Source: Lachnospiraceae bacterium A4
Lineage (GTDB): Bacteria; Bacillota; Clostridia; Lachnospirales; Lachnospiraceae
DNA: 48,963 bases
NCBI GenBank assembly: GCA_000403215.2
Contig: KE159532.1
Span: forward strand, 136,927-185,889
Reading direction: 5' to 3'
Positions 1 to 48,963 of this stretch are shown piece by piece; within the stretch, counting starts at the first letter, position 1; each line of letters starts with the position of its first letter. The notes beneath the pieces are model-generated. The model worked only from the letters and a program-made list of their open reading frames with translations, was not told the origin of the DNA and made no database searches. The position numbers and the translations under genes are program-made.

Positions 1-13
1 GTAAGTAACATGA

Positions 14-343
14 ACACATCCTCCAACGTTTTTCTTTATTGTACTTGAAATGTGGAGGAATTGCAAAATCTTTTCCGGTTTATCCGGGTTAGGGTATTAT
101 GTTGCAGAAGAATACTGGGGAAAAGGGATTATGACCGAAGCCGTAAAACAGATTTGTGAATGCGTTTTTGATAAGAGCGATATTATCCGCATATATGCAG
201 AGCCATTTGCATACAATATTGCTTCTTGCCGAGTGCTTGAAAAGGCAGGATTCCAGTATGAGGGTACATTGAGAAGCAATGCTGTAAAAAATGGTAAAGC
301 TATCGACATGAAGATGTATTCTTTGCTGAAAACGGAAATATAG
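14..343 (+). pseudogene. GNAT acetyltransferase remnant (RimJ/RimL-like), N-terminal half lost
   Basis: The readable part begins at ATG 50 (97 codons) and is the acetyl-CoA-binding C-terminal half of a GNAT N-acetyltransferase: a GYYVAEEYWGKGIMTEAV stretch (motif A with the pyrophosphate loop), then the conserved N-x-x-S-x-x-V-x-E-K-x-G-F segment of RimJ/RimL-like enzymes. Family members are about 170-185 residues, so roughly 80 N-terminal residues are missing. The frame is open back only to a stop at 11-13. A PPTFF piece at 20-34 looks like an older in-frame remnant, and fragments of the missing middle appear in another frame, so I read it as frameshifted rather than merely cut by the window edge. 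The substrate cannot be inferred. Confidence 0.6.
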
Positions 344-40606: not shown

Positions 40607-41016
40607 TTCTGAAAATTTACAGCAATATATTCAGTTTTCAAAGTTCCTATCGTGAAAAGGATAAAATACAAATACCCTTTTGACTACCTAATCATTAAAT
40701 ACATATATGGTAAAAATTGATGTTTCGACAGGGCAATACCATATAGACTATTTAACAAATAATGATGATAATTTCTGATTTTTTGTCTAATCTATAGACC
40801 AATTGTTTATCGTGAAAAATAGAGTTGAATATTTCGTCAGTTTTCGAGATGAATGAAGGGGACATAGTGAGTAAAAGTACAAAAGAAGGAATAATTATCT
40901 TTTATGTTATTGCTTTCTCAAAACATAAAAATAGAACGATGTATTTTGATTTTGGGCATAAACATTGAGCCTGACGATTTGGCAGACTTGAGAAAAAGTA
41001 TTAACAGGCTGGATGT

Positions 41017-42546
41017 TTATTGTGCTGCTAGTTCCGGATAGATTTTCCGTTTGGTTTCAATCAGGGCTTCCATAACCCGCCTCCCTTTATCGCTGACCAG
41101 ATATCTTCTGGAGTGTGGGATTTTCCGGATCAATCCATGGCCCCTGAGTTTTGAAAACTCCCGGCTCATTTTCCCACGACTTTTTGCAGATTCAGCCCCT
41201 TTTTTATAGAGACTTTGTCGGATATCGCGGTTGGTAAATCCACGGATCAGATAGCGGCCATCACAAATCGTTTCGAAAAGATGGAAGGTTTCAGGGGACC
41301 ATACATTATATCCACTGTAAGTTTTTCCCTTTACTTTCTTTTTCTGGCAGACATGATTGATTTCCTCTTCCACGCTTTTTTGAGGAATCACATGACACAT
41401 GGAATCTAAAAACCGTTTGTTTGCAGTTTTTGAAATCTCTGCATACCGATAGAGGTTTGCAATGGATTTCCCCATGGGAACCCACTGCCTCGAAGCCGTT
41501 CCGTCCTTATGATGGACCTCCTTATAAACCTTAAATTCCTTTGGGTCATTGATCGTCATTTCTATCCGAAGGCAGTTAAATTTATCATACATCTTGATAC
41601 TGTTGGACTTCAGCTTGAATTTAATCCTCCAGCCTACTGGGCGTTTTCGGTAATCGGAGACTGCTTCTCCCAGAAACTTTGCATTTAGTTTACGTCCCAG
41701 AAAGGAAAATACATCTGTGCATTTGAAGTCATAAAATGCGTGCCCAACCAGGGAGGGATAAATATCCTCCAGAGCTTCACGGCTCTCAAACATCACATCG
41801 GTTGCGAACTCGCATTGGTCAACAGACCAGTGGTAACCCTGATGGAAGATGGTTTCCAGCATATCAAGATAAGGGTTTACTTTATGCGCAAAGAAATCGA
41901 GCTGGCGGCAGAGTTTTTTTGAGTCAAATTGATCTGCCAGTTCCTGTGCTTTTGGAATGTCGCTGATTTCTGAAAAAGAATTATCATACATACGGTAGGT
42001 GATCCCGTTTTTATCAAACACATGCTTCATCATCTCCCTGCCGTTTATGTACACCTGGATCAGAAATGGGAACCATGTTTGGAGTTTTACATGCATGAAT
42101 CCAAACTCTTTATCGAGGTAATAGAAGTAATAGTATTTACATTTGCGGGTAACGCTGCGCAGTTCCAGGAGCCCGGAGGAGTTCTTTACTGGTTGGAGCA
42201 TCTGGCATCCTTCCACGACAGATAAGATACAGATCAGTCCTTGCTCAACAGGATTTTCGAGAAGGATTTTCCGCGCGTTTTCCTCTTTTGATATTTGTGA
42301 GGAAGAGAGGTAGACCAAAGGCCGGCCTTCTTTGGCGGCCATTTTCTCAACATAAGAGACAAGGTCATTGGTCATTTGGTTTGCATAGGCAGAAAAGTCT
42401 TTGAGAAGGAGGTTCATCTGTGACAAAAAATACATTCTGCCCGATACGGAAAAGAAGGGGAAAAGGTAACCTTTTATAATCATGCGGTCAAAAAATGCAA
42501 AAGTACCATTGATTTTTTTCTGGAATTGTTCTAATATAGTGTTCAT
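41017..42546 (-). CDS. 509-aa protein of unknown function, candidate transposase
   Basis: Leftward, ATG 42546 after AAAGGATGA. I recall similar proteins in very diverse bacteria, always unannotated, but know no function. Conserved-looking blocks: FDRMIIKGYL (19-28), YFYYLDKEFGFMHVKLQTWF (140-159), INGRE (167-171), QCEFATDVMF (244-253), FLGRKL (282-287), then RIKFKLKSNSIKMYDK with LRIEMTIN (307-333), and a C-terminal winged-helix-like part (about 433-495: GFTNRDIRQSLYKKG, FSKLRGHGLIRKI, RRYLVSDKGRRVMEAL). The YDK...LRIE strand pair faintly recalls rolling-circle initiators of the Rep_trans type (weak inference). Invariant acids D20, E246, D250, E329 could be catalytic. No DDE, HUH, serine or DEDD recombinase pattern is evident. 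Confidence 0.85.
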   Translation of the reverse strand: MNTILEQFQKKINGTFAFFDRMIIKGYLFPFFSVSGRMYFLSQMNLLLKDFSAYANQMTNDLVSYVEKMAAKEGRPLVYLSSSQISKEENARKILLENPVEQGLICILSVVEGCQMLQPVKNSSGLLELRSVTRKCKYYYFYYLDKEFGFMHVKLQTWFPFLIQVYINGREMMKHVFDKNGITYRMYDNSFSEISDIPKAQELADQFDSKKLCRQLDFFAHKVNPYLDMLETIFHQGYHWSVDQCEFATDVMFESREALEDIYPSLVGHAFYDFKCTDVFSFLGRKLNAKFLGEAVSDYRKRPVGWRIKFKLKSNSIKMYDKFNCLRIEMTINDPKEFKVYKEVHHKDGTASRQWVPMGKSIANLYRYAEISKTANKRFLDSMCHVIPQKSVEEEINHVCQKKKVKGKTYSGYNVWSPETFHLFETICDGRYLIRGFTNRDIRQSLYKKGAESAKSRGKMSREFSKLRGHGLIRKIPHSRRYLVSDKGRRVMEALIETKRKIYPELAAQ

Positions 42547-42632
42547 AGGATCATCCTTTCGTATGAATGCTTGCAGGGGAATTTAGTTCCCGATGGATTT
42601 GGTACAAGATACCGTATATGTGCATTATAGCA
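42547..42632 (-). promoter_or_regulatory. Element promoter and structured leader
   Basis: On the complement an extended -10, TGCTATAAT (42632-42624), without a good -35, starts a leader of about 70 nt. The leader contains GGTA-...-TACC (42601-42613) and GGGAA-tttag-TTCCC (42577-42591) hairpins ahead of the SD. The part of the leader covered by the second copy is identical. It could encode a short structured RNA. Confidence 0.45.
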
Positions 42633-42678
42633 CGTGCATCTACGAATAGGATGATTCTTTTTGCTTTTAGGTTTGATT

Positions 42679-42693
42679 GCAGCCGTAGGCTGC
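42679..42693. repeat. Terminal hairpin of the putative element
   Basis: GCAGCC-gta-GGCTGC, five bases inside the proposed end at 42698. The same hairpin is at 48876-48890 in the second copy. Subterminal hairpins are used for end recognition in IS200/IS605 elements; a similar use here is inference. Confidence 0.6.
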
Positions 42694-42868
42694 GGTATGA
42701 TATAGGACAAACGAAACAGCCAGTTATCGAAAAACTTTCAGAGAAAGTGTATCGTAAACTGGCTTTTCTTTTGCAAAAGTTTCCGACAGGGAATTTGCAT
42801 AATCGCAGGAATTTTGACTGAACCATTCTAAGGAATGGTGAAGGGAATTATCTTGTGGAGGGAGTACA

Positions 42869-43139: not shown

Positions 43140-44522
43140 ATGAAACTGACAAGACATAACGGCAGAGTTGGAAAAAACGGCGTTTACAATCCCAAGCATA
43201 ATGACCGAAGATTTGACATTGAAAACAGTGAGCATATCGACACGGAGCGGGCAAAACAAAATATTTATTGGGACTGCTACACCGGATTTTCTTTCGCAAA
43301 AATAAGGGAGCATGACAAAGAAAATGATTACTCTTTTGAAAAAATTGAACAGCTTTACTACTTTGAACATTACGCAGACCACATACAGGCGCAGAATGAG
43401 CGGAACGAGAAAACAAGACACACCGAGCGCAATCGGACAGTGACAGATTTACTCACAAATAATAAAACGTGTCCCGAAGAAAGCATTTATCAAATCGGCA
43501 CGATTGATGAGTCTGTATCGGGAGAAATGTTAGCTAAGATAGCGACAGAGTTTTTTGCAGAAATCGAAGAAAAATTCGGTACTCATGTACACATCTTAGA
43601 CTGGGCATTACATCTTGACGAGGGCACTCCGCATATCCATGAAAGGCACGTTTTTGACTGCAAAAATAATTATGGAGAACTGTGTCCCCATCAGGAAAAA
43701 GCGCTTGAAGAATTAGGCGTGCCATTACCCAATCCCGACAAGAAGAAAGGCAGGAACAACAACCGCAAACAGACTTTTGATGCGGAATGCCGCAAGATGC
43801 TTTTCCGTATTTGTGAAAAGCATAATCTTCACTTACAGACGGAACCGACATATGGCGGCAGGGGTTATTTGGAGAAACAGGATTTTATCATTGAAAAACA
43901 GAAAGATACAATCTCTGTGCAGAAAGATATTCTTTCCGAAAATGAACAGGCAATAGAGGAACAGGCGAAGAAAATCCAGAAGGCAGAAAATACTCTATCT
44001 CAAAGGGTAAAAGTAATTGAAAAGCAGGATAAAATCATTGCGGAGAAAAATGCCGCAATTTTGAAAAAACATTCTGCACTTAAAGATGTCATAATGAAAC
44101 TTGCAGATGTGGAAACGCTGGTTGACGAAGTTGCGGAGCAGGCGTATGAAAAAGCCTGTGAGGCTGTTGCCAATACCGTCCGGCAGGAAACCCAGAAAGA
44201 GGATATAAAAATCCTTGATGATTATTCCAGATGGCTGTCAGCGCCGGAGCGCACTGCTGACAAAAAGCTGCGGGATTATGCGGTAAAGCGTCTGGGAGCA
44301 TTGAAAGAAAAACTTATAAAATCTGCAAAAGCCACCGTGCAAAAAGTTACGGATTCTTTGCAGGAGCCGGAACACAGGCAGAAAAATCTTGAACAGGTCA
44401 GGGAGAAAGCGAGGGAATCTATTAAGGACAGGCTTGCAAGGGGAAAAACAGAAGCAGACCGTCTGAATAGGGAGCGCATGGAACGCATACGCCCGACAAT
44501 AAAAAAGGATATGGAAATTTAA
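43140..44522 (+). CDS. MobV-type relaxase (plasmid recombination enzyme family)
   Basis: 460 aa, ATG 43140 (the nearest SD-like GGGGGA is about 15 bases upstream). It would nick oriT and carry the strand during conjugative mobilisation. The N-terminal relaxase domain (about 1-240) starts RHNGRVGKNGVYNPKHNDR and contains the metal-binding motif LHLDEGTPHIHERH (H158, D160, E161, H165, H167), the MobV signature H-x-D-E-x-x-P-H-x-H. After a GGRGYLEKQDF boundary, the C-terminal half (about 245-460) is a long charged coiled coil. This gut-clostridial type lacks plasmid partners here and lies with a primase-like gene and a VirE-like gene, suggesting an integrated mobilisable element. Confidence 0.88.
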   Translation: MKLTRHNGRVGKNGVYNPKHNDRRFDIENSEHIDTERAKQNIYWDCYTGFSFAKIREHDKENDYSFEKIEQLYYFEHYADHIQAQNERNEKTRHTERNRTVTDLLTNNKTCPEESIYQIGTIDESVSGEMLAKIATEFFAEIEEKFGTHVHILDWALHLDEGTPHIHERHVFDCKNNYGELCPHQEKALEELGVPLPNPDKKKGRNNNRKQTFDAECRKMLFRICEKHNLHLQTEPTYGGRGYLEKQDFIIEKQKDTISVQKDILSENEQAIEEQAKKIQKAENTLSQRVKVIEKQDKIIAEKNAAILKKHSALKDVIMKLADVETLVDEVAEQAYEKACEAVANTVRQETQKEDIKILDDYSRWLSAPERTADKKLRDYAVKRLGALKEKLIKSAKATVQKVTDSLQEPEHRQKNLEQVREKARESIKDRLARGKTEADRLNRERMERIRPTIKKDMEI

Positions 44523-44571
44523 AGCATTTGCTTTTCTTTATGGAGATGGCATCTGCTTTTTTTATGCACAC

Positions 44572-44611
44572 GGGCGCATGAGGAAATTAGCTGCTGATGC
44601 AGCATGCGCCC
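44572..44611. other. Compound hairpin between relaxase and primase genes
   Basis: GGGCGCATG (44572-44580) pairs perfectly with CATGCGCCC (44603-44611) around an inner GCTGC-tgat-GCAGC stem (44590-44603). It is preceded by a terminator-like AGCATTTGC/GCATCTGCT stem with seven T (44523-44563). Confidence 0.6.
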
Positions 44612-44669
44612 GGCGCGGCGGGCAGTGGAGAAGGTCACTCCCCTGCCCAATTTTCAGAAAGGAAATGAC

Positions 44670-45311
44670 ATGAATGTATTTGAATCGGTAAAAGAAAACG
44701 TGACAGCAAGACAGGCTGCGGAGATGTATGGAATCAGGATAAACAGAAACAGTATGGCCTGCTGCCCTTTTCATGATGATAAGCATCCCAGCATGAAAGT
44801 GGATAAACGCTTCCACTGTTTCGTCTGTCAGGAGGACGGCGATGTGATTGATTTTGCCGCAAAGCTGTACGGGCTGAACAGTCTTGGGGCGGCTGTGAAG
44901 CTGGCGGCTGATTTTGGGATTGACTATGACAGCAAAGGCCGGGCTTCTCCACGTCCTGCAAAAAAGAAATTATCGGAGGAACTGCGATTTAAACAGGCAG
45001 GGTTACAGTGTTTCCGAATTTTATCAGACTACAATCATCTGCTGGAAAAATGGAAAACAGAATATGCGCCAAAAGAGCCGGAGGAGGAATGGCATCCCCT
45101 GTTTGTGGAGGCTTTACAGAAGCAGACATACATTGAGTATCTGCTGGATATCCTTCTGACTGGCACAGCGGAAGAAAAGGCAGAACTGATAAGGGGATAT
45201 GGAAAGGAAGTGATGCGGATTGGGGAACGGATTTCAGGACTTGCCGCCTGCCACAAGGCAGACCGTGATGAACGCAGCGGATATGCTCGCTCCGGCAATG
45301 ACAGTCGGTGA
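44670..45311 (+). CDS. CHC2 zinc-finger primase-like protein
   Basis: 213 aa. The ATG at 44670 has AAAGGAAA before it; a longer frame to 44604 begins inside the hairpin. The N-terminus is a DnaG-type zinc-binding domain: CCPFHDDKHPSM with FHCFVCQEDGD, ligands C32, H35, C50, C53, and a following DVIDFAAKLYGLNSLGAAV helix. The catalytic TOPRIM part of DnaG is absent, and the rest (about 100-213) is a charged helical tail. Such short primases accompany relaxase and VirE-like genes in mobilisable elements and probably help copy the transferred strand. The end overlaps the next gene. Confidence 0.85.
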   Translation: MNVFESVKENVTARQAAEMYGIRINRNSMACCPFHDDKHPSMKVDKRFHCFVCQEDGDVIDFAAKLYGLNSLGAAVKLAADFGIDYDSKGRASPRPAKKKLSEELRFKQAGLQCFRILSDYNHLLEKWKTEYAPKEPEEEWHPLFVEALQKQTYIEYLLDILLTGTAEEKAELIRGYGKEVMRIGERISGLAACHKADRDERSGYARSGNDSR

Positions 45312-46629
45312 GGTTAGAGAAAGCCTTGATACCACGCAGAAGGGACAGACGGCGAATACAATCGCAAACTGCAGGACCGTGTTCCAGTGCGATCCGCTCT
45401 TAAAGGGGGCAGTCCGTTTCAATCTCCTGACGGAACGGATTGATATTGTCCGGGAAGTCGGGTGGCGCAGGGACACCAGCGTACTTACAGACACGGACAT
45501 AAAATATCTGCTCCTTTACTTCGAGGAGAACTACGGAATCACCAGTGAGAAAAAGATACAGAATGCCTTGGCGATTGTGGCAAATGAAAACTGCTATCAC
45601 CCGATTCAGGATTGTTTAAAAGGGCTTTCATGGGACGGAACGCCACGTATCCGCTCATGCCTGCACCATTTTTTAGGGGCTGATGCAGATGATTATGTGG
45701 AGGAAATGTTGAAGCACTTCCTGCTGGGCGCAGTCCGGCGTGTGTTTATGCCCGGTTCAAAATATGAGGAAATGCTTTGTCTTGTGGGCGGACAGGGGGC
45801 TGGAAAATCTACTTTTTTCCGTTTGCTGGCGATAAAAGACGAATGGTTCAGTGACGATTTAAAGAAGCTGGACGATGACAAGGTGTTCACGAAATTACAG
45901 GGGCACTGGATTATCGAGATGTCAGAGATGCTTGCCACCAGCAGTGCAAAGAGCATTGAAGAAATCCGCTCTTTTATCAGCAGGCAGAAGGAAACGTACC
46001 GCACGCCTTATGAATCACAGCCAAAGGACAGGCTGCGGCAGTGCGTGTTCGGCGGCACGTCAAACAGGCTGGACTTTCTGTCCCTTGACCGTGCAGGGAA
46101 CCGGCGGTTTCTGCCTGTGATGGTCTGCCCGGAGGATGCCGAGATACATATCTTAGAGGACGAGGACGCTTCAAGGGCATATTTTTTGCAGGTTTGGGCA
46201 GAAGCAATGGAGATTTACCGAAGCGGGCGGTATTCCATGAAATTCAGCAAGCCTGTGCAGAGAAAACTTGTGGAAGTACAGAAAGACTTTATGCCGGAGG
46301 ATACCGAGGCGGGCATGATTATCGGATTTCTGGAAAATTACCGTGGAAATCAGGTGTGCTCCAAACAGCTTTACCGGGAAGCCCTGCACCATGAATATGA
46401 CGAGCCGAAGCGCTGGCAGATTCACGACATTAATGAGATTATGAATACGGCAGTCACAGGCTGGCGGTATTTTTCCAATCCGAGGGCGTTTGACGGGAAT
46501 GGCAGACAAAAAGGCTGGGAACGCATAGCGGATTCCGGCAACGAACCACCCGGCAACGAAGCTGGTTTTTCGGAACTGACAGAAAAAGAAGCCCGTCAGA
46601 TGGGGATACCGAAGGAGTGGATGGAATGA
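45268..46629 (+). CDS. VirE/SF3-like ATPase of a mobile element
   Basis: 453 aa from ATG 45268; a TTG at 45220 (469 aa) is an alternative, and both overlap the primase gene. Virulence-associated-E family P-loop ATPase: Walker A LVGGQGAGKSTFFRLL (about 172-187), Walker B region HWIIEMSEMLA, then EEIRSFISRQKETYRTPYES and the arginine-rich GTSNRLDFLSLDRAGNRRFL. The upstream domain has ENCYHPIQDCLKGLSWDGTP, the usual entry into this family. The C-terminus (about 370-453) is a small helix-turn-helix-like region, then a low-complexity GNEPPGNEAG. It likely acts as replicative helicase with the primase-like protein. Confidence 0.88.
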   Translation: MNAADMLAPAMTVGEVRESLDTTQKGQTANTIANCRTVFQCDPLLKGAVRFNLLTERIDIVREVGWRRDTSVLTDTDIKYLLLYFEENYGITSEKKIQNALAIVANENCYHPIQDCLKGLSWDGTPRIRSCLHHFLGADADDYVEEMLKHFLLGAVRRVFMPGSKYEEMLCLVGGQGAGKSTFFRLLAIKDEWFSDDLKKLDDDKVFTKLQGHWIIEMSEMLATSSAKSIEEIRSFISRQKETYRTPYESQPKDRLRQCVFGGTSNRLDFLSLDRAGNRRFLPVMVCPEDAEIHILEDEDASRAYFLQVWAEAMEIYRSGRYSMKFSKPVQRKLVEVQKDFMPEDTEAGMIIGFLENYRGNQVCSKQLYREALHHEYDEPKRWQIHDINEIMNTAVTGWRYFSNPRAFDGNGRQKGWERIADSGNEPPGNEAGFSELTEKEARQMGIPKEWME

Positions 46630-46963: not shown

Positions 46964-47374
46964 TTATCCTTCTATTCTAATGCATTTCTCCTGCTCTTCG
47001 ATGTACTTTTTTATTGTCTCTTCGTTCACTTGCCCAATCGTCTCAGCATAATATCCTCTTGCCCAAAAATGTCTGCCATACTTGTCCCTGTATTCTGGGT
47101 GTCGGTCGAATATCATCAAGGCACTCTTTCCTTTCAATTTTGACATCACTTCCGAGATACTCATCTTGGGCGGAATCGAAACATACAGATGTACATGGTT
47201 TGGACATACTCCGCCTTTTATCAATTTTACTCCTGTGATTTTACATACTGTGGACAATATCTCGCCAACCTCTTTCCCAATCTTCCCATACATTACTTTC
47301 CGGCGATATTTCGGAATAAAAACAATATGATACGTGCAATTATACTTGGTATGTGCTAAAATCTGATTATCCAT
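46964..47374 (-). CDS. tnpA: IS200/IS605 family transposase TnpA (Y1 HUH)
   Basis: 136 aa, leftward. GGAGGT lies seven bases before ATG 47374. It cuts and rejoins single-stranded element ends. HUH motif PNHVHLYVSIPPK (H60, H62), catalytic Tyr124 in NEETIKKYIEEQ, and the family opening HTKYNCTYHIVFIPKYRRKV. A GRHFWARGYYAETIG segment is also typical. Length is normal and there is no accessory tnpB. A transcription stop GAACCTCTTTTAAGAGGT overlaps its 3' side (46945-46963). Confidence 0.95.
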   Translation of the reverse strand: MDNQILAHTKYNCTYHIVFIPKYRRKVMYGKIGKEVGEILSTVCKITGVKLIKGGVCPNHVHLYVSIPPKMSISEVMSKLKGKSALMIFDRHPEYRDKYGRHFWARGYYAETIGQVNEETIKKYIEEQEKCIRIEG

Positions 47375-47499
47375 TATGGATACCTCCTGCTATTGTTGAT
47401 TAGGTTGCCTAGACCCAAATCCATGATAACATGGAGGTTTTATTTTTGGTACTTTAGGGATCGCTACTGCTCACTCTATTCTCCCCAGCTCTGCTGGGG

Positions 47500-47992
47500 G
47501 CTTAATGGACGTTCAGTTAGCAACAAATTAGCGACAATTAAGAGAACAGAATCATACTATTTGCTGGCTGCTGCTCAGTTTTCATTATATATTTTTATAA
47601 AATAAGTGACAATAGGAATCCGTCTCTTAACCCCATATTAAGTATAATGTATGTATCAAAAAACAAGCACTCTCATTATCATAGGATTCTGGCAAATTAT
47701 AATTTATTCATATCCTTTATTTTATGGATTATGCTCTATGGTGATGGAGTTTGGTGCAATTTAAGAATTATCCGCAGAGCAACGCTATGCAGAGTTAAAT
47801 ACTTTTATGAAAAAACTCATCTTCGAGACATTACAGTTGATACATACGCACAGCAACGCAACGCGAATAAGGTATAAAAAGTAACTTTATTAACTCAACA
47901 CCATGATTAAATGAAGAGGATGCCACATCATATAACTATGTTGGTATCATAAGCCTCAATAATCATGAGAAATTTTAAAGAGGAAAGGATTA
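47500..47992. other. Intergenic region, about 490 bp, no supported gene
   Basis: AT-rich. A 76-codon frame at 47647-47877 has no SD or known motif and I do not accept it. TATAAT at about 47643-47648 may be a promoter box. The last 60 bp form the pilin-gene leader. Confidence 0.4.
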
Positions 47993-48451
47993 GTGAGTCC
48001 AATGAACAAATTGAGAGAAGTAAGAGATGAAAAGAAACTTGATAACAAAGGTTTCTCCCTTGTGGAGTTAATTATTGTTATTGCAATTATGGCAGTATTG
48101 ATTGGTGTGCTGGCACCGCAGTATTTGAAGTATGTGGAGAAGTCAAGAGTATCTGCTGATGCAGACCAGATTGATGCATGTATCTCGGCAGTAGAAATTT
48201 ACTCTTCAGACCCAGAACATAGTGTAGTTACTGGAAAAATGAAAATTGATTCAAATGGAAATTTAGATTTTTCAGATGGTTCAGATATTAAAACTGCAAT
48301 CGAAGATGCTGGCATTAGCACAGCAAATGTTCAAGTGAAAAGCAAAACATTCCAAAAGGGTTGTACTATTGATTTCAGCACAAATGGAGTAACAGTAAGT
48401 GATCCAGATATAGCAAAAGCATTAGGTCGTGCATCACCACCAACACCATAA
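47993..48451 (+). CDS. Type IV pilin-like (pseudopilin) protein, orphan
   Basis: 152 aa from GTG 47993 (AAAGAGG nine bases before); ATG 48002 is an alternative. Class-III signal: short basic leader ending KKLDNKG, prepilin-peptidase cleavage before FSLVELIIVI (Gly20/Phe21, Glu at +5), then a hydrophobic helix to YLKYVEKSR. The globular part (about 55-152) is acidic and beta-rich, without the usual disulfide pair (single Cys in the helix end and one at 123 region). It would be assembled into a thin pilus or secretion pseudopilus. No peptidase, ATPase or other pilus gene is nearby. It ends with ASPPTP and a strong hairpin terminator. Confidence 0.88.
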   Translation: MSPMNKLREVRDEKKLDNKGFSLVELIIVIAIMAVLIGVLAPQYLKYVEKSRVSADADQIDACISAVEIYSSDPEHSVVTGKMKIDSNGNLDFSDGSDIKTAIEDAGISTANVQVKSKTFQKGCTIDFSTNGVTVSDPDIAKALGRASPPTP

Positions 48452-48486
48452 TAACTGAGGTATTATTTAAAATAAATACTCTTTAT

Positions 48487-48524
48487 GAATAGTATTTTCA
48501 TTACTGAGAATACTATTCATTTTT
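48487..48524. terminator. Terminator shared by the pilin gene and the convergent pseudogene
   Basis: GAATAGTATT (48487-48496) pairs with AATACTATTC (48509-48518), followed by ATTTTTT. Confidence 0.75.
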
Positions 48525-48870
48525 TACCCTTATCATTTGCCTCCACATCATAGAAAATAACAATATTATTCCCCACCATTCCAATCAGATTATTTTCAAA
48601 ACTCCACACAAATAAGTTTATCCCATCGAGTACATTCTTACCTGACTGCATTGCAATCACATGATGTTTACCGGCTTTTTGAATCAGTATTTCTTCAAAA
48701 TTTCCATCAGTACTTTCATCTCCGCTTTCAGGATTTAACAAAGCAAATGGATTGTCATGATATTTAATCCTTCCACTATTTCAACACATCAAAGTACCAT
48801 CTGATTTTGATACAAACACTGTATATCCATCAAAACTTATTGCTCGAATTTCATTCATATCATCTATGTC
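48517..48870 (-). pseudogene. Interrupted RCC1/beta-propeller-like gene fragment
   Basis: Leftward from the element junction: frame DIDDMNEIRAISFDGYTVFV then SKSDGTLMC, an in-frame TGA (48783-48781), and again open from NSGRIKYHDNPFALL to the stop at 48517. The pattern V-F-V-S-K-S-D-G-T-L-x-x-W-x-x-G suggests an RCC1-like repeat in which TGA replaced TGG (Trp). The C-terminal part (GKNVLDGINLFVWSFENN) continues in the same style. The 5' portion was cut off by insertion of the second element copy. Perhaps a surface protein partner of the pilin, but that rests on position only. Confidence 0.55.
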
Positions 48871-48963
48871 ATACCGCAGCCTACGGCTGCAATCAAACCT
48901 AAAAGCAAAAAGAATCATCCTATTCGTAGATGCACGTGCTATAATGCACATATACGGTATCTT
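48871..48963 (+). mobile_element. Second copy of the putative novel element (5' end only, runs off the window)
   Basis: Exact reverse complement of 42606-42698 over all 93 bases, including the GCAGCC/GGCTGC terminal hairpin and the TGCTATAAT promoter box. The gene, if intact, starts about 60 bp beyond the window on the plus strand. The flank GAC (48868-48870) matches the GAT beside the first copy. Confidence 0.85.

Follow-up and report, generated by a model that had tools for sequence, protein, structure and literature searches.

The window analyzed here is the whole stretch of 48,963 nucleotides of Lachnospiraceae bacterium A4 that corresponds to G000:C6:136927-185889 in our numbering (contig KE159532.1), in a genome of 6.96 Mb in 40 contigs. 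On its minus strand, at 40903-42695, lies a 1793-bp element with one gene, which encodes a protein of 509 amino acids (aa). The element very likely belongs to a real and widespread family of insertion sequences, and its protein is likely, though unproven, to be a transposase of a kind resembling the Rep_trans replication initiators. The parts of this element, referred to as A-type in distinction from a sister group (B-type) in the same genome, and the ends of other copies in the window are listed below.

40903..42695, minus strand: complete A-type insertion sequence, read from 42695 to 40903, delimited by copy comparison
42696..42699, minus strand: target core CATA, directly before the left end; the empty site of L023, another A-type insertion, has it a single time
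42679..42693, minus strand: left-end hairpin GCAGCC-TAC-GGCTGC, covarying across phyla, with the inferred cleavage site 2 bases away
42671..42678, minus strand: AATCAAAC, the local form of a conserved AACCAAA box after the hairpin, from the end alignment
42547..42670, minus strand: remaining 5' non-coding part (gene leader)
41017..42546, minus strand: gene of the inferred transposase, 509 aa, with a predicted duplicated sheet (about residues 10-385) and a C-terminal winged helix
42487..42489, minus strand: codon of D20, predicted metal ligand, present in 43/44 homologues
41809..41811, minus strand: codon of E246 within QxE, predicted metal ligand, 44/44
41587..41589, minus strand: codon of Y320 within KxYxK, predicted nucleophile, 44/44
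41560..41562, minus strand: codon of E329 within LRxE, predicted metal ligand, 44/44
41047..41241, minus strand: predicted winged-helix DNA-binding domain, MarR/ArsR-like, about residues 436-500
40903..41016, minus strand: 3' non-coding right end, 114 bp, mostly outside the limits first proposed for the unit
40903..40906, minus strand: right-end core CATA, the same as the target core, from copy comparison
48870..48963, plus strand: left end and target CATA of a second A-type copy, inverted and truncated where the contig stops; the same flank adjoins a full copy at C1:743603-745286
1..93, minus strand: left end of a B-type copy, running off the window start into a run of N, from the pattern search

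The ends of the A-type unit were fixed by the comparison of copies and by pairwise alignment. The stretch common to the copies measures 1797 bp (window 40903-42699), both CATA cores included, and because it runs to 40903, non-coding DNA of 114 bp lies 3' of the stop codon; a 149-bp part precedes the gene. The initial annotation of the window had placed the unit at 41015-42698, with a 152-bp 5' part and a stop codon almost touching the end, and these limits must be replaced by those given above. Its intact open reading frame (ORF) of 509 aa, the hairpin at one end and the lack of terminal inverted repeats (judged by eye on the aligned ends) were all borne out. In gene orientation, the A-type unit starts with CATA followed by CCGCAGCC and finishes with CAATAACATA, and the B-type unit starts with CCTAA followed by CCCGGATAAACCGG and finishes with CCTAA. 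Both ends are available for 12 of the 15 A-type rows that were compared, all of them CATA-terminated; two others have the left end only, and the right end of L025 reads differently. Similarly, 13 of the 16 B-type rows have both ends and are CCTAA-terminated, one (L031) has the right end only, and two have the left end only, one of which (L111) carries CCCAA.

The genome holds four readable full-length A-type copies and five B-type copies. A comparison of the window DNA with its own genome revealed two full copies at about 100% identity, two at 76% and some partial ones; the copies in the window and on contig C1 are 99.5% identical, and those on C34 and C36 are 100% identical to each other and 76% to the former two. 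The B-type group, which was found via the protein search, shows 35% protein identity to the A-type, and its copies are 99.4-99.8% identical in the pairs compared. The flanks are unrelated between copies. A search by pattern for left ends, tolerating up to 2 mismatches, located 26 in the genome (8 A-type and 18 B-type) and none with the reversed pattern; the eight A-type ends include the copy at the contig end of the window, possibly the same locus as the C1 copy. Of ten B-type ends examined in addition to the readable copies, seven run into N-runs, breaking off 92-95 bp (four) or 109-193 bp (three) into the element, and the other three are decayed or have lost internal sequence. A B-type derivative at L187:306-991, which lacks about 900 bp internally as well as the right tip, is possibly a non-autonomous relic.

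The second copy in the window had been described as an inverted repeat of 93 bases. The repeat is present (arms 42606-42705 and 48864-48963, 99% identical) and it is the left end of another A-type copy, which stops at the contig end: the 1541 bp of window 47423-48963 match contig C1 at 100% identity, and on C1 this flank leads into a complete element. Since four of the seven N-broken copies stop 92-95 bp inside the element, this length looks like an assembly (word-length) limit, and N-runs may also mark withheld stretches. The end of contig C6 itself represents either a duplication, a rearrangement at the insertion sequence or an assembly join. The 1541-bp identity starts just beyond an IS200-type Y1 transposase gene at 46964-47374. 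The further claim that each copy interrupts a different gene did not hold, as the restored target site was spanned by an ORF of at least 100 aa in none of the four A-type and in three of the five B-type copies tested.

Empty sites were sought for eight insertions, the joined flanks of four B-type copies being compared with 144 genomes, our own included; the other four were A-type copies. A clear empty counterpart was identified for three, two of them base-exact, with no target duplication. The site of L029 (B-type) is present without the element in G010, where 220/220 bases are identical and CCTAA occurs singly. Five further aligned empty loci at this site (L124-L128), one of them in G000, read CCTGA instead of CCTAA, which is consistent with a need for the core. 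For L027 (B-type), several genomes gave junction-spanning matches, that of G016 differing slightly just ahead of the core. G016 and G007 lack the element at the site of L023 (A-type); their sequences match exactly across the junction (60 + 34 bases, with one mismatch, and 60 + 26 bases) and contain one CATA. The site is also empty in G026 and G013, at 84% identity. Insertion follows the core without duplication or loss. Upstream of CATA, the A-type target has T in 14/14, A in 13/14 and T in 12/14 cases at positions -5 to -3; this preference is weaker in the B-type, and neither type shows a clear preference in the right flank. The pattern of copies, many of them 99.4-100% identical within groups and located in unrelated flanks, together with the exact empty sites in relatives, is beyond chance. 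Hence, the element behaves as an insertion sequence does, with almost identical copies in unrelated places, ends that are constant and empty sites that match, and it is not confined to fixed positions without repeated flanks; the proposal of a mobile unit built on an unannotated protein is thereby upheld.

Three features recur in the left ends of relatives from different phyla, namely the core C[CA][TC]A, a hairpin that covaries and the box AACCAAA; the A- and B-type right ends repeat their own core. Ends were also defined independently via pairs of close relatives, for example in Paraburkholderia, where CCTAA is followed by GCCGGACGAGCCGGAACCAAACAGG and the element finishes with CGACTAA. In 16 left ends, delimited mostly through copy comparison and with the stem chosen by eye, a four-pair stem is formed in 96.9% of the cells and three of its four pairs change on both sides; 14 cells are changed on both sides versus 4.9 in shuffles (0/500). 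Of 39 further loci, 19 carry the signature under a strict pattern, compared with an expectation of 2.6 from mononucleotide shuffles. Three weak-looking ones (L040, L065, and L121) were left out of a larger alignment of 31 left ends, comprised of 16 loci picked by this pattern and 15 earlier ends. In this alignment 91% of the hairpin cells are paired, four of five pairs show changes on both sides, and 25 cells are changed on both sides versus 8.0 +/- 1.9 in shuffles (0/500); stems slid along the same rows were 10-42% paired. A right-end stem is present in the B-type, Paraburkholderia and Verrucomicrobia rows, with little of it in Bacteroidales and the A-type. The end signature accompanies the candidate transposase gene across phyla.

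As the initial annotation had anticipated, homologues occur in many phyla. A scan of contigs yielded 213 relatives among 321 candidate stretches, and the titles of the best 80 include Bacillota, Acidobacteriota, Chloroflexi, Chlorobiota, Bacteroidales, Alpha-, Beta- and Gammaproteobacteria, Actinomycetes, Planctomycetes, Verrucomicrobia, Myxococcota, Desulfobacter-type bacteria and others; many relatives are metagenome bins, and single taxon assignments may therefore be wrong. The closest named relatives of the element among these 80 are in Lachnospiraceae assemblies. A protein search found the family in six of 98 genomes, our own included; one of the six matches (L015, E 2.7e-4) was dropped as a chance match. 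A profile search detected it in 12 of 299 genomes of the phylum, again with our own, many as fragments, and such a sparse and fragmentary distribution is as expected of insertion sequences. No homologue was found in the viral or phage collections searched. Eight plasmid records contain distant members (21-30% identical), and of these five are called hypothetical, the label that the initial annotation had given for all homologues, one is labeled 'ArsR family transcriptional regulator' and two are without annotation. At L086:3950-5547 and L087:455-2052, in bins named Bacteroidales and Ignavibacteriales, the element is 99.9% identical over 1598 bp, due to either a recent transfer or a binning error.

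Searches of Pfam, NCBIfam and PHROGs gave nothing convincing for the 509-aa protein and no match to a known transposase family, in agreement with the earlier statement that it lacks a known transposase signature. In 44 homologues, the recurrent Pfam matches are to winged-helix families, e.g., HVO_A0261_N (9/44) and HTH_5 (4/44), and the NCBIfam and PHROGs matches are to regulators, with one weak match to replication initiation. The latter (phrog_2190, 'replication initiation protein', 1/44, E 0.007) was too weak to be built on, and matches to CARF/Csa3 models of PADLOC (the commonest in 16/44), which in the window protein cover residues 417-493, the winged-helix end, were likewise set aside. 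Twelve positions, including E246, K318, Y320, R327, and E329, are invariant in both the 44-sequence set and a 41-sequence set, and the invariant residues sit in the large N-terminal part, outside the winged helix. An AlphaFold2 model from the 41 sequences (predicted local distance difference test 89.3, predicted template modeling score 0.74) opens with one strand, several helices, four long strands and another helix; past a short linker come again one strand, helices, six strands and a helix, followed by the winged helix. This predicted duplicated sheet weakly resembles the TATA-binding protein (TBP). Foldseek against PDB placed TBP (1ais) at rank 9 with probability 0.35, and MarR proteins reached 0.97. 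Against BFVD, two matches had E <= 0.001, the best being A0A2N9QVX7 (E 4e-4), and lower ones included a Megaviridae TBP, a pithovirus TFIID and an inovirus protein among unnamed or unrelated ones. A0A2N9QVX7 is named as a viral TBP, and reported as a match of the archaeal initiator RepSNJ2, in PMC13107129. The TBP lead matters because RepSNJ2 gave this same match and has the same architecture.

The predicted active site can be compared with that of Rep_trans enzymes. RepDE holds its metal on D46, D142, and E214, with Y191 on a strand and R189, K193, and R212 near (Carr et al., PMC4797284), and the Rep_trans motifs are given as D; RxD; T/SxY/ExG; YxKxxE; and W/LxRxE (review, PMC5714925). Our model places each of D20, E246, Y320, and E329 on a strand of its own, like D46, D142, Y191, and E214 of RepDE. 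Among the 44 homologues, D20 and Q244 are present in 43, K322 in 39, and E246, A or S at 248, K318, Y320, L326, R327, and E329 in all 44; of four residues previously put forward as possibly invariant (D20, E246, D250, and E329), the two glutamates are so, while D20 (43) and D250 (39) are not. A Rep_trans set of 12 sequences (11 of the 13 PF02486 matches found, and one PF05144 match, L156) shows D, RxDxA, YxK, and RxE in the same order, 12/12 each. Hence, motif N' (D), the YxK of motif III and the RxE of motif IV are present in the family. The ordered D...RxD/QxE...YxK...RxE on separate predicted strands, accompanied by a weak TBP-like fold signal, resembles the Rep_trans rolling-circle initiators and MobT-type relaxases (PF02486; RepD/RepDE, Tn916, and ICEBs1), whose own setting is plasmid, phage or conjugative element, whereas the family described here has a C-terminal winged helix and sits in an insertion sequence. 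Membership of PF02486 is not claimed. The Rep-Arvir/RepSNJ2 proteins (DUF7845) have, like the predicted structure here, a TBP-like catalytic domain followed by a MarR-like winged helix, and a hairpin at the DNA site. In RepSNJ2 the tyrosine and two of three acidic residues are essential, and its tie to Rep_trans is, per its authors, by structure only (PMC13107129). These are replication proteins of archaeal viruses and plasmids, for which the accessible text describes no transposase role, and PF25227 (Rep-Arvir) is not among the Pfam matches of the 44 homologues.

Our interpretation, which we regard as probable, is that the element represents a class of insertion sequence not described before, in which the single gene encodes the transposase, a Rep_trans-like tyrosine nickase with a TBP-like fold and a C-terminal winged helix. 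Both the left flank and the right end have the core, the empty site has a single core and a hairpin stands by the left core, all of which suggests a cut after the core at both ends. On one strand, the enzyme would recognize the hairpin of the left end and, at the right end, a weaker structure, presumably with a part played by the winged helix. Y320, aided by a metal that D20, E246, and E329 coordinate, would cut behind the left-flank core, which is CATA in this element and CCTAA in the sister group, and a second time behind the same core at the right end. The outer parts would be rejoined, restoring the donor with one core, and the inner parts joined, giving either a circle of single-stranded DNA or a copied strand; the junction of this product would rebuild core and hairpin as in the integrated left end. 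The circle would be opened again and integrated behind a core elsewhere, and no duplication would arise. IS200/IS605 elements and rolling-circle origins work by such cutting at a core and rebuilding of the junction. On balance we also favor the broader proposal that TBP-fold tyrosine nickases are a new class of transposase, driving single-strand insertion sequences in many bacterial phyla, and that the core-plus-hairpin end doubles as a replication-like origin and a target-matching site.

A number of observations weigh against this interpretation. No empty site was found for five of the eight insertions sought; in the 144 genomes, L028 gave a 70% match only and L026 no junction-spanning match. 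No circle or tandem junction was detected (B-type, 98 genomes; A-type, own genome). The strict signature was not found in 20 of the 39 further loci, which include the known B-type copies L082 and L083, so that the pattern misses some. In the 31-row alignment, 16 rows were picked by a pattern demanding a stem, one of the five hairpin pairs fails in 10 rows, and neither the number of both-side-changed pairs (84/500) nor the pair types (293/500) exceeded the shuffles; right-end hairpins are weak in several groups, with modest z-scores of 0.07 to -2.07. With regard to the protein, QxE stands where Rep_trans motif I has RxD, and motif II (T/SxY/ExG) and the E of YxKxxE were not found in the family. 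A composite motif present in 39/44 family members, 11/12 of the Rep_trans set, 0/393 other ORFs and 2/880 shuffles was written after both sets had been seen. Neither the window protein nor the 44 homologues match PF02486, and hhalign comparisons with Rep_trans were not significant, cropped halves included, for which reason the protein is not assigned to Rep_trans. In RepSNJ2, the residue matching E246 is reported to be dispensable (PMC13107129). Foldseek found no PDB match at E <= 0.001 and no Rep_trans structure among the best 50 of 612 matches; the viral matches have low template modeling scores (0.13-0.26 by query in the first ten) and include unrelated proteins, and because of this poor superposition the TBP-like signal is read as a lead. 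Lastly, 12 of the 15 clear-skew copies in G000 (of 16) run against the leading strand (guanine-cytosine skew judged by eye; 11/16 by ORF direction), and in 49 loci from elsewhere the ratios were 10:10 and 5:4 for clear-skew ones, and 7:15 and 15:12 by ORF direction; an orientation bias relative to replication was rejected as not reproducible in independent loci.

Of the alternatives, a conservative, site-specific-like recombination, in which an enzyme of a new fold would join a double-stranded circle and its target via the shared core CATA or CCTAA, in the manner of tyrosine or serine recombinases, fits the identical end cores, the single core in the empty site and the absence of duplication equally well. 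We nevertheless consider it unlikely, since no recombinase family is matched, the conserved hairpin lies on one side of the core, and the residue pattern fits a single-strand nickase.

IS200/IS605 elements (IS608 and ISDra2) lack inverted repeats and target duplications, have subterminal hairpins and insert after a short core, and our element resembles them in these respects, with its hairpin at the left. A degenerate HUH enzyme of IS91- or IS200-like origin, with the histidines replaced, would account for this end anatomy and target behavior, and QxE could replace the HUH motif. However, the IS200/IS605 transposase is a small HUH Y1 enzyme whereas the protein here has 509 aa, and it matches neither Y1_Tnp nor a HUH Rep, although the IS200 gene of the window, a positive control, was found at 2e-42. 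IS91 likewise has no inverted repeats or duplications (PMC5714925). The IS91/ISCR elements share with ours one Rep-like gene and this lack of repeats, but they use a HUH Y2 enzyme, no family of which was matched in Pfam, NCBIfam or PHROGs, and the fold predicted here is different. The modeled tyrosine lies on a strand, as in Rep_trans, and the HUH tyrosine on a helix (PMC4797284, PMC5714925); additionally, the best viral fold match is a TBP. A degenerate HUH enzyme therefore appears quite improbable.

It is very improbable that the gene is a passenger or winged-helix regulator in an element moved in trans, e.g., by the resident IS200 transposase (46964-47374). The C-terminal winged helix does yield labels such as 'ArsR family regulator', but the end signature travels with the gene across phyla, and it is the large N-terminal part that contains the invariant residues. 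The ten extra B-type ends, being N-broken (7) or decayed or deleted (3), speak neither for nor against gene-less copies moved in trans. Least credible is an RNA-guided element of the IS110/IS1111 type with the non-coding 5' part as guide RNA, for although a non-coding end and the absence of inverted repeats and duplication would suit it, there is no IS110 domain or other DEDD transposase family match and no Rfam match in the element, the B-type leader has only about 80 bp, and flanks differ beyond the short core.

In the vicinity of the insertion sequence, window 43140-46629 contains genes for a mobilization-like protein that resembles a relaxase (with no Pfam match), a CHC2 zinc-finger protein and a VapE-like protein, and is probably an integrated mobile element adjoining it. 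A pilin-like protein with a prokaryotic N-terminal methylation motif is encoded at 47993-48451.

Transposases fall into few chemical classes, and the class proposed here would stand beside the DDE, DEDD, HUH, and serine and tyrosine recombinase types. HUH nickases serve plasmids, phages, conjugation and transposition, and the Rep_trans enzymes are structurally unrelated to them. The accessible part of a review describes Rep_trans only for plasmids, phages and conjugation (PMC5714925). Among the matches listed in the PMC literature there was no Rep_trans or TBP-like-fold transposase; an enzyme type known from plasmids, phages, conjugative elements and archaeal viruses is thus, as far as checked, not known from insertion sequences. 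If our interpretation is correct, a Rep_trans-like enzyme in a widespread insertion sequence would fill this gap in the roles of Rep_trans, would mean that replication initiators had become transposases a second time, by an independent route, and would also explain a protein family that is labeled hypothetical or 'ArsR regulator'.

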